Positions 29,790 to 32,851 of a DNA stretch of 32,974 nucleotides are shown piece after piece (within the stretch, counting starts at the first letter, position 1; the number at the start of each line of letters is the position of its first letter). The stretch is taken from the NCBI GenBank assembly GCA_024644015.1, contig JAHELV010000032.1, forward strand, positions 10,713 through 43,686. The letters run 5' to 3'. A program made the position numbers and the translations under genes. Origin of the DNA: Nitriliruptorales bacterium. GTDB lineage: Bacteria; Actinomycetota; Nitriliruptoria; Euzebyales; JAHELV01. The notes below the pieces were generated by a model. The model was not told the DNA's origin. It ran no database searches and was given only the letters and a program-made list of their open reading frames with translations.

Positions 29790-31349
29790 TCAGAAGGGCA
29801 GGTCGGTACTGCCTGCCGCTGGCCCGTGCCGTGTCGCGGGTCGCCGCCGGTTGCGTCCCGCCGGGGGCGCGTGATCCGATCGGGCGACCTGCCCAGCGCG
29901 CGGAAGGCTGCGAAGTGTCACGCCTCGTCGGACGAACGTCATCGATCCGTCCTTGTGCAACGTGGCGTGCCAGCGACCTTCGTGGACGGCGTGGTGGTGC
30001 GCCGCACACATCAGGGCCAGGTTGTCGAGCACCGTCGGCCCGCCTCGGAGCCTCGGAATGACGTGGTGCGCTTCGCAGACATCGACCGGCCGGTGGCATG
30101 ACGCGAAACGGCAGTGTCCGTCGCGGGCGATCAGCGCCGCGCGGAGTGGTGCGGAGATTCGCGCATACGGCTCGGCGGTGCCGAGCACCTTGGCGCCGTC
30201 GGTCAGGACCGGCCGCAGCGTCGCGTCGCACGCCAGACGCTGCACGGCTTCGGGAGTCAGCGACGGAGACGGTCGGTCCTGCCGCCACAGCAGTTGCGCA
30301 ATGTCTCGGGGTCGAAACGTGCCGCTCGCTGTCGCCTGATCGACACGTCGACGGCCGACGTCGTGAACCGGATCGGCCAGCAGCGAGACATCGGTGATGA
30401 CGATCATCTCGGGCCGCGCCGCCGAGGGCGCGCCGCCGACGTCCGGCGCCGTCACTTTGTCGTCGGTCACATTGCCGGGCCCATCTGGCGCGTCACCGCG
30501 GTCGCCGTGCGCCGCCGTCGCGTCACGGTCGCCGTGCGCCGCCGTCGCGTCACGGTCGCGTCGGGCGAGGCGCTGCCGTGCGAGTGCCCGCAACGCCTCG
30601 ATGTTCGACGCCACCCGCCGACCGGCCGCATCATGGGTGAGCGTCTCGATCGCCGTCTGAACCGCGGTGAAGGTCTCGGAGTCCATAGCGGCGAACGCCT
30701 CCCCCGAGCCGTCCATGCCGGGTTGCAGGACCAGCCGCTGACCGGCGGAGGCCCGCTGCGCGCGCTGATCCCGCAGATCGGGGCGGGCCTGTTCGACCAG
30801 CCGGTCCGCGGCGGCCACGACAGCGTCCCCATCCAGGCACCGCAGACGGGCTCGGTCGCCGGCCAGCGTCCCGTCGAGCCAGCGACGTTGCTCAGCGGTC
30901 AGGACCCTTACCGATATCACGATGCCACGAACCGTGCCCCACGACAGCACGCCGTCACGAAACGCACGCAGAGTCGCGGGCATGTCCGCCAGCCGTTCTG
31001 CGGCGACGATGAGCATGCCGGCGTCCGCGCCTGTACGCCGCGCGACGGCCCGCAGCCACGATTCGATCGTCAGCCCCTCCGCAATGACGACGCTGGGCCG
31101 GTCGCAACGCATCAGCACGACGACGACGGCGGCCAGCAGCCGGTCGATCGCTCCGAGTAGGCCGGCCACGCCCCCCAGCGCCTCGGAATCATGTGCCGAG
31201 GTCGCCGTCCCGTCCAGTACATCAAGGCTGCGCGCGGCCTGCCGCGCCAGATCTTCGGCCACCTCGGCAACCAGCGCCAGCGGGCCTGGCCTCGACTGCG
31301 ACTCCAGTCCGCTGGCCGGTCGGTCCGGGTACTCCGTAGTTGTTGACAT
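29790..31349 (-). CDS. DUF222/13E12-type HNH endonuclease-domain protein under a LexA-type site
   Basis: The 519-residue protein has the DUF222 layout of the 13E12 family: a helical N-terminal part (about 25-260) and a C-terminal HNH domain at about 400-460. The HNH set is complete: Cys413 and Cys418 in GHCRFASC, Cys425 and His428/429 in CEAHHVIPRLRGG, Asn443, Cys448 and the HHH at 451-453, plus His456. Metal-dependent DNA cleavage is therefore plausible, although the targets of this family are not known. A hydrophilic linker (264-300) contains two copies of a nine-residue unit. The ATG at 31349 is predicted to be the transcript start itself (see the promoter at 31356-31384), so no ribosome-binding site is needed. 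An open frame runs upstream through the 55-bp repeats but is not coding. Confidence 0.93.
   Translation of the reverse strand: MSTTTEYPDRPASGLESQSRPGPLALVAEVAEDLARQAARSLDVLDGTATSAHDSEALGGVAGLLGAIDRLLAAVVVVLMRCDRPSVVIAEGLTIESWLRAVARRTGADAGMLIVAAERLADMPATLRAFRDGVLSWGTVRGIVISVRVLTAEQRRWLDGTLAGDRARLRCLDGDAVVAAADRLVEQARPDLRDQRAQRASAGQRLVLQPGMDGSGEAFAAMDSETFTAVQTAIETLTHDAAGRRVASNIEALRALARQRLARRDRDATAAHGDRDATAAHGDRGDAPDGPGNVTDDKVTAPDVGGAPSAARPEMIVITDVSLLADPVHDVGRRRVDQATASGTFRPRDIAQLLWRQDRPSPSLTPEAVQRLACDATLRPVLTDGAKVLGTAEPYARISAPLRAALIARDGHCRFASCHRPVDVCEAHHVIPRLRGGPTVLDNLALMCAAHHHAVHEGRWHATLHKDGSMTFVRRGVTLRSLPRAGQVARSDHAPPAGRNRRRPATRHGPAAGSTDLPF
30501..30554 (+). repeat. Two exact 27-bp tandem copies inside the HNH gene
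   Basis: The 27-bp unit at 30501-30527 is repeated exactly at 30528-30554. Because 27 is a multiple of three, the protein simply gains a second DRDATAAHG unit in its hydrophilic linker. A perfect copy indicates recent slippage, and copy number probably varies between strains without breaking the frame. Confidence 0.95.
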
Positions 31350-31352
31350 GAC

Positions 31353-31368
31353 TAGAACATATGTTCGA
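31353..31368. promoter_or_regulatory. LexA (SOS) box covering the -10 of the HNH gene
   Basis: Minus strand TCGAACATATGTTCTA matches the Gram-positive/actinobacterial SOS box TCGAAC-N4-GTTCGA at all but one of the twelve fixed positions. The core GAACATATGTTC is a perfect 12-bp palindrome. The box ends three bases before the start codon and covers the predicted -10, so LexA binding would block transcription until DNA damage. LexA control of some 13E12-family genes has been reported in mycobacteria, as I recall. Confidence 0.72.
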
Positions 31369-31384
31369 GTACTTGTGACGTCAA
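31356..31384 (-). promoter_or_regulatory. Near-consensus promoter of the HNH gene, leaderless
   Basis: On the minus strand TTGACG (31384-31379, -35) is followed by exactly 17 bases and TATGTT (31361-31356, -10). Six bases then separate the -10 from the ATG at 31349, which would be close to the transcript start. This is the best -35/-10 pair seen in the window. Confidence 0.65.
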
Positions 31385-31413
31385 CTGCTGTTTCGGTGGC
31401 TGTGGACAAACTT

Positions 31414-31633
31414 CGTGGAGCCTGGTTCCACGAAGCACGTGCAGGACCGGCGCCGCCGGACAGAACCTCGTGGAGCCTGGTTCCACGAAGCACGTGCAGG
31501 ACCGGCGCCGCCGGACAGAACCTCGTGGAGCCTGGTTCCACGAAACACGTGCAGGACCGGCGCCGCCGGACAGAACCTCGTGGAGCCTGGTTCCACGAAA
31601 CACGTGCAGGACCGGCGCCGCCGGACAGAACCT
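31414..31633 (+). repeat. Four 55-bp tandem repeats upstream of the HNH gene
   Basis: The 55-bp unit occurs four times without spacers at 31414-31468, 31469-31523, 31524-31578 and 31579-31633. All copies are identical except one base (G in units 1-2, A in units 3-4, next to CACGTG). Each unit holds a hairpin CGTGGA-GCCTGGT-TCCACG (in unit 1 extended to nine base pairs by CTT/AAG), the palindrome CACGTG, and CCGGC-GCC-GCCGG. The array fills most of the 407-base gene-free stretch between the HNH promoter and ychF. Since 55 is not a multiple of three, it is not a protein repeat, and the lack of spacers excludes CRISPR. Confidence 0.97.
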
Positions 31634-31756
31634 CGCAGAGATGCGCAGGCCGGCGAAGGTGTCCGGATCGTGGCGGGCCACAGCCGCCGGCGGCATGCTG
31701 GCCGCTGCCTTGCACACGGCATCGTCACGCCGTTCGCCACAGGACCATCGCACATC

Positions 31757-32851
31757 ATGAGCCTCACCGTCGGGATCGTCGGACTTCCGAACGTCGGCAA
31801 GTCGACGTTGTTCAACGCCGTCAGCGCAGCGCGCGCCGAGGCGGCGAACTACCCATTCGCGACCATCGAGCCCAACGTCGGGATCGTCAGCGTGCCCGAT
31901 GAACGAGTCGCGGTGCTGGCACGGCTGGTGTCAGCGGCCCGCACGGTGCCAGCCACGGTCGAGTTTCGCGACATCGCGGGCCTGGTCAAGGGCGCGAGTG
32001 TAGGCGAGGGTCTCGGCAACCAGTTCCTGTCGCACATCCGTGAGGTCGACGCGATCGTGCACGTCGTGCGGTGCTTCGACGATCCCGATGTCGTCCACGT
32101 CGAGGGCCTCGTCGATCCTGTGCGCGACATCGAGATCACCGAGACCGAGCTGCTGCTCAAGGACCTCGAAACACTCGAGCGCGCGGCCGACCGGGCAGCC
32201 CGGACGGCCAAGTCGGGCGGCGCGGCGGCCCGACGGCGCGCCGACACGCTGCTGAGCCTACGCGATCAGGTCCGCGCAGGCATCGGCGCACGAACCGCGA
32301 CCGATCCCGGCGCTGCCACCGTCGCGCGCGAACTCGGACTGTTGACAGCCAAGCCCGTCCTCTACGTGGGAAACGTCGCCGAGGACGAGTTGCCGGATCC
32401 CAGCTCGGAGGCTGTGCGGGCGCTCCGCCGTGTCGCCGAGGAACGCGACGCCGAGGTGGTGATCATCTGTGCCGAGGTCGAGGCCCAGATCGCCGAACTC
32501 GACGCCGGTGACCGGGCGACGTTCCTCACCGAGCTCGGGCTCACGACATCGGGGCTCGACCGCGTCGTGACGGCCGCGTACCGGCTGCTCGGCCTGCTCA
32601 CGTTCTTCACCGCAGGACCGAAGGAGGCACGGGCGTGGACCATTCGCACCGGGGCCCACGCACCAGATGCCGCCGGCGTGATCCACAGCGACATGCAGCG
32701 CGGATTCATCCGGGCCGAGGTGATCAGCTACGACGACTTCGCGACGCTCGGCAGCGAGCAGGCTGCACGCGACGCCGGCCGCATGCGCATCGAGGGCAAG
32801 GACTACGTCGTCCGCGACGGCGACGTGCTGCACGTCCGATTCAACGTGTGA
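31757..32851 (+). CDS. ychF: Redox-regulated ATPase/GTPase YchF (OBG family)
   Basis: The 364-residue product has the family's usual length and motifs: P-loop GLPNVGKST (9-17), switch region ATIEPNVGIVSVPDERV, G3 segment DIAGLVKGASVGEGLGNQFL, and a C-terminal TGS-like domain ending DYVVRDGDVLHVRFNV. YchF prefers ATP over GTP and associates with ribosomes and stress responses. The ATG at 31757 begins the conserved MSLTVGIVGL; AGGA about 12 bases before it is a poor ribosome-binding site. No promoter is obvious between the repeat array and the gene, so the array might lie in its 5' region. Confidence 0.97.
   Translation: MSLTVGIVGLPNVGKSTLFNAVSAARAEAANYPFATIEPNVGIVSVPDERVAVLARLVSAARTVPATVEFRDIAGLVKGASVGEGLGNQFLSHIREVDAIVHVVRCFDDPDVVHVEGLVDPVRDIEITETELLLKDLETLERAADRAARTAKSGGAAARRRADTLLSLRDQVRAGIGARTATDPGAATVARELGLLTAKPVLYVGNVAEDELPDPSSEAVRALRRVAEERDAEVVIICAEVEAQIAELDAGDRATFLTELGLTTSGLDRVVTAAYRLLGLLTFFTAGPKEARAWTIRTGAHAPDAAGVIHSDMQRGFIRAEVISYDDFATLGSEQAARDAGRMRIEGKDYVVRDGDVLHVRFNV

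Follow-up and report, generated by a model that had tools for sequence, protein, structure and literature searches.

How a gene is controlled when its start codon, its promoter and a repressor site all fall within a few dozen base pairs, and what that control says about the role of its product, is the question raised by a putative nuclease gene on the minus strand of the window, a stretch of 32,974 nucleotides from a Nitriliruptorales bacterium whose positions are numbered from its first letter. The features concerned are as follows.

31379 to 31384, minus strand: -35 hexamer TTGACG.
Between TTGACG and TATGTT, minus strand: spacer TCACAAGTACTCGAACA, 17 nt.
31356 to 31361, minus strand: -10 hexamer TATGTT, inside the LexA-type box.
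31353 to 31368, minus strand: LexA/SOS-type box TCGAACATATGTTCTA, found by pattern scans of the window and the genome.
31355 to 31366, minus strand: core of the box, GAACATATGTTC, within TCGAACATATGTTCTA.
31347 to 31349, minus strand: ATG start codon, separated from the -10 by the six bases CTAGTC.
29790 to 31349, minus strand: gene of the DUF222 and HNH protein, 519 aa, stop codon included, from the open reading frame, Pfam and paralog comparison.
30639 to 31145, minus strand: DUF222 region, best Pfam stretch (PF02720, marginal at 26.4 bits against a cut-off of 24.4).
29970 to 30122, minus strand: HNH nuclease domain (PF01844, above the Pfam cut-off).
29793 to 29801, minus strand: C-terminal Leu-Pro-Phe, from a comparison of 94 related tails.

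The preliminary description of this locus had read promoter, box and ATG as three overlapping signals, with the -10 lying inside the box and the ATG six bases past it, and the signals match base for base on the minus strand (TATGTT at 31361-31356 within the box at 31368-31353, ATG at 31349-31347). Its view of the promoter as near consensus holds for the -35, with five of six positions, and fits the -10 less well, with four of six. Scanning both strands of 31250-31800 for promoters returned TTGACG/TATGTT as the sole promoter-like site (9/12, against a shuffle mean of 0.0). No second copy of the box occurs in the window even with one mismatch allowed, the chance expectation being 0. The box departs by one outer base from the mycobacterial operator TCGAAC-N4-GTTCGA, its outer flank reading GTTCTA rather than GTTCGA around an exact core; it also covers the -10, in the operator-over-promoter arrangement of the LexA regulon. 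With the -10 ending 6 nt before the ATG, the transcript is predicted to start at or next to this codon.

We looked for the remainder of such a regulon in the genome that carries the window (a 4.0-Mb assembly of 161 contigs, numbered with the prefix C, the window being C45). A lexA gene at C48:23666-24283 (TIGR00498, 219 bits) encodes both the DNA-binding and the self-cleaving domain, and its product aligns over both to solved full-length LexA chains. Two GAACN4GTTC sites are found upstream of it, GAACGTCTGTTC at C48:24465 and GAACACAAGTTC at C48:24497, of which the latter departs from the RNNY form, and the box upstream of recA reads GAACGTTCGTTC. Genome-wide, the pattern GAACRNNYGTTC occurs at 41 sites, compared with 0 for the reversed pattern. 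A search for SOS boxes over other DUF222 genes, as the preliminary description had suggested, showed that each DUF222 gene detected has a box at its start or beside it, namely those on C45, C50, C144, C151 and C51 and a fragment on C10. The closest paralogs, C50 and C144, are 47% identical and share the register of the window gene, in which 5 nt separate box and ATG (box-to-start sequences GAACGTATGTTCTATTCATG and GAACGTACGTTCTATTCATG in the paralogs and GAACATATGTTCTAGTCATG in the window). At the two DUF222 genes at C51:106974 and C10:95606, whose starts are uncertain, the ATG lies within the SOS box or overlaps its first base (GAACACATGTTC and ATGAACACATGTTC), so that the start codon itself may belong to the operator.

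Matches to the window protein are present in 53 of the 61 genomes of the class. The upstream regions of 90 class homologs, picked by similarity to the window protein (their loci carry L numbers below), were scanned for the motif at an in-frame start; start codons were scanned in-frame candidates, and shuffled controls were given the same freedom. At 22 of the 90, GAACN4GTTC was present with no more than one mismatch and with its last base 4-8 nt ahead of the start codon (shuffled mean 0.5, maximum 3), and the exact motif was found at 16 of the 90, against 0 after shuffling. Sixteen promoters from several genera keep the register of the window: TAYGTT is present in every one, ending 6-7 nt before the ATG, and 13 also carry TTG at the exact 17-base spacing. 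Among background open reading frames of at least 200 aa without HNH, the box was found at 5 of 814, and a second motif, described below, at 3 of 814; Fisher tests of homologs against this background give 3e-13 for the box and 1e-39 for the second motif, but the 90 genes share ancestry, so that neither these values nor the counts represent independent trials. A search of 397 genomes from the phylum for the exact 20-mer GAACRNNYGTTCTANNCATG showed it to be genus-specific, with four matches at DUF222 genes and one further match in G351 (L093) without DUF222 homology, while control matches were found in three genomes; wider searches consequently treated box and spacing separately. Together with the lexA and recA genes and their boxes, and the boxes at the DUF222 paralogs, the conserved register supports the earlier proposal of LexA control, and the shared geometry suggests that LexA binds the box.

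Many of the homologs without a box carry another element in its place, TGTCACA-N9-NANNNT (equivalently TGTCA-N11-NANNNT), whose -10 ends 5-8 nt before the start. With up to one mismatch in TGTCA it was found at 43 of the 90 homologs (shuffled mean 0.3) and in exact form at 29 of the 90 (shuffled 0.02), whereas 29 of the 90 have neither motif at a start. This element matches the published form of PafBC-dependent promoters in M. tuberculosis, TGTCAC-10N-TA-3N-T (PMC8151990), and would thus connect these homologs to a damage pathway that is independent of RecA (PMC8223512). As in mycobacteria, the PafBC-type motif is also found next to the SOS box upstream of recA in relatives, and WYL/WCX proteins adjoin pafA in G034, G042 and G040. 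The recA matches in G003, G030, G034, G040 and G058 are broken into two or three segments of a single long open frame (720-1330 aa), a pattern that would be expected for inteins in recA. In six genomes, the leaderless PafBC-type pattern gave 41 matches and 0 in controls; about half of the 30 loci read are DUF222-HNH genes, and the others, judged by eye, presumably encode uvrB-, sbcD-, lhr-, herA- and topoisomerase-like proteins. Both complete motifs share one common -10 at L092, as do a LexA box and a PafBC element with one mismatch at L075 and L142, and these three promoters are likely to act as gates requiring activation plus derepression.

At the window gene itself the PafBC promoter TGTC(A/G)-N11-TANNNT is absent; leaderless sites of the TGTCACA form number 0 in its genome, and all DUF222 genes there are of the LexA type only. 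No WCX-domain (PafBC-type) protein was matched in this genome, in which pafA and dop-like genes are present and whose relatives have WCX, and the species may have lost the PafBC pathway.

Among named genomes, a single-protein query gave no confirmed relative, and homologs were obtained through an alignment query, the nearest being Actinomycetota bins and Nitriliruptoraceae. Within 40 nt of the start, 10 of 67 usable named homologs have an SOS box and 12 a PafBC motif, with 0 and 0 in the mirror-image control. The PafBC-type -10 lies 6-8 nt before the ATG in Kribbella, Antrihabitans, Actinomycetospora, Phytoactinopolyspora and Acidimicrobiales. The SOS box of the Rhodococcus, Acidimicrobiia and Lentzea homologs is placed 15-16 nt before the ATG and is followed, by eye, by a NANNNT -10 located 6 nt before the ATG. 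The leaderless -10 thus appears constant whatever the position of the box, with the operator fitted around it. In a quickly built tree of 85 DUF222 regions, with rows labelled LexA, PafBC or none, starred branches force 6 of the at least 8 changes required for the LexA label and 8 of the 12 required for the PafBC label; 5 LexA/PafBC switches are needed when unlabelled rows are ignored. These numbers are rough, since rows without a label may reflect missed motifs or wrong starts and since the SOS label is doubtful for L105, where a PafBC-like promoter precedes a box that falls barely within the coding sequence. In one starred clade, a sub-clade of six LexA members is the sister group of a sub-clade of eight that includes PafBC members, in a group with further PafBC members. 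Within these limits, the two operators seem to interchange on the tree; as promoters switched sensor repeatedly while damage control stayed, selection would keep damage control rather than a particular regulator.

The encoded protein has the features of the DUF222-HNH family, which we take to be the 13E12 family: PF02720 is above its cut-off (Pfam search with the frame taken from 31346), as it is in the C144 paralog at 67.7 bits, and a C-terminal HNH domain retains its catalytic and metal residues. D410, C413, C418, H428, H429, N443, C448, H451 and H452 are invariant in 46 aligned relatives, so that the nuclease site looks intact and the 519-aa protein is predicted to have nuclease activity. 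A fold search of the protein gave no significant match (best E 0.15 in the PDB and 0.0066 in viral models); its HNH part matches known nucleases with probabilities of 0.77-0.95 for the best chains at non-significant E, the helical part shows a weak resemblance to ParB/Noc-like domains, and defence-system and other protein libraries returned weak HNH matches only. EcoKMcrA and Gme HNH nucleases have in common with the window protein the HNH fold of about 50-75 residues, whereas the rest of the protein is unrelated, and modification dependence is not implied. An exact Leu-Pro-Phe end after a variable linker is found in 10 of 94 related HNH proteins, the window protein included. It resembles the DDDIPF tip of SSB, the single-stranded DNA-binding protein, and is possibly a docking tail for repair machinery, though the likeness is one of resemblance only.

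The region between the HNH promoter and the neighbouring ychF-like gene (31758-32851) contains a 55-bp unit repeated four times in tandem (31409-31683), and every copy includes the palindrome TTCGTGGAGCCTGGTTCCACGAA. This palindrome is found at 17 forward places in the genome (up to 2 mismatches, 0 in controls), some of them in small arrays, and is a dispersed REP-like element. YchF is reported to act as a regulator of the translation of leaderless mRNA under stress (PMC8138138), and the position of a ychF-like gene beside a predicted leaderless gene may be a coincidence.

Taken as a whole, these sequence comparisons make it highly probable that the DUF222-HNH nuclease gene is driven by a leaderless promoter which LexA represses and DNA damage induces. 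As long as the cell is undamaged, a LexA dimer on 31353-31368 would cover the -10, and RNA polymerase should thereby be blocked; upon damage, RecA would trigger LexA self-cleavage and free the box, polymerase would then bind TTGACG/TATGTT and begin transcription at the A of the ATG or beside it, and the leaderless message would be translated without a Shine-Dalgarno sequence into an HNH nuclease that probably cuts or processes DNA after damage. The whole family would be kept under damage control in the same manner, through a LexA box, a PafBC promoter instead or, in a few cases, both. That the box is instead a chance palindrome over a constitutive promoter is hardly credible: the GAACN4GTTC core by itself has a chance expectation of about 0.3 per window, but that of the full box is 0, the genome-wide count is 41 against 0 and the register is conserved in relatives. 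LexA could also control the gene from a box located in leader or coding sequence, with transcript or translation starting further upstream, for example at GTG 31715, to which the frame is open, giving 641 aa. We consider this improbable, as the stretch upstream of the ATG is the 55-bp tandem repeat, the nearest paralog, C144, has 513 aa from its ATG in an open frame of only 542, the spacing of 5 nt from box to ATG is kept across genera, and the sole promoter-like site of the region sits at the ATG.

What the nuclease would do under such control is a separate matter, on which the alternatives carry more weight. DUF222-HNH genes might be selfish, homing-like or phage-derived elements for which damage is a signal to spread; the 13E12 family has been described with mobile-element features (PMC5005354), its copies are numerous and patchy, and homing nucleases often have the HNH fold. 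This origin nonetheless seems unlikely, given that 50,697 phage and 72,556 plasmid records contain HNH-domain matches only and no full-length relative, that the window gene is in chromosomal surroundings, flanked by PAC2-like and ychF-like genes, and that operators changed repeatedly while damage control was retained. Somewhat less unlikely, though still doubtful, is a death effector, which would break down the chromosome of severely damaged cells instead of repairing it: MSMEG_1275 of M. smegmatis, compared here as an HNH nuclease only, cleaves DNA and kills on over-expression (PMC9416677), but four of the five HNH genes in the same study were non-toxic, and regulation in common with uvrB-, sbcD- and helicase-like genes also suits repair. 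With low confidence, we therefore favour DNA processing after damage over suicide as the function of the LexA-controlled nuclease.

Several elements of this reading are already known from M. tuberculosis, whose LexA-regulated 13E12 genes (PMC5005354, PMC4181829, PMC8151990) are among the closest known systems. LexA control of these genes goes back to Davis et al. 2002, as cited in PMC5005354 and PMC4181829, RecA-dependent damage induction has been reported for five HNH genes, and a mismatch-repair role has been proposed for 13E12 HNH proteins (PMC4181829). These are the same kind of gene with the same SOS box as the window gene, which differs in belonging to another actinobacterial class and in having a box that overlies the -10 and keeps a constant distance of 5-6 nt to the ATG. 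The lexA mRNA of M. tuberculosis is leaderless (PMC2897130), as are about a quarter of the genes with a primary start in this organism (PMC3898074). A LexA-pathway gene whose mRNA begins at the start codon thus parallels what is predicted for the window gene, although here the start is predicted from conserved spacing and in a nuclease family. PafBC or RecA-NDp promoters (PMC8151990, PMC8223512) have the same TGTCAC-10N-TA-3N-T form as those of many homologs, in contrast to the window gene with its LexA box only and its genome without a WCX-domain match; dual LexA and PafBC control is known for recA. In the main texts searched, few of them from subscription journals, we found no description of the leaderless register with the box on the -10, of its class-wide recurrence, of the PafBC swap or of the dual promoters.

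DUF222-HNH proteins, including 13E12 of M. tuberculosis, are numerous in actinobacteria and without settled function. With related actinobacterial genes carrying the same or a second damage switch at the same place, this nuclease family looks wired to damage, and on balance we lean towards regarding DUF222-HNH proteins as phylum-wide damage effectors with a fixed leaderless register, repeated LexA/PafBC switching and, in some cases, dual control. That many lineages combine a fixed leaderless promoter with one of two damage switches suggests a testable role in the damage response; pairs of homologs offer a natural comparison of LexA repression with PafBC activation at a shared start site, and the family could further serve as a natural experiment on whether translation stress favours leaderless messages.
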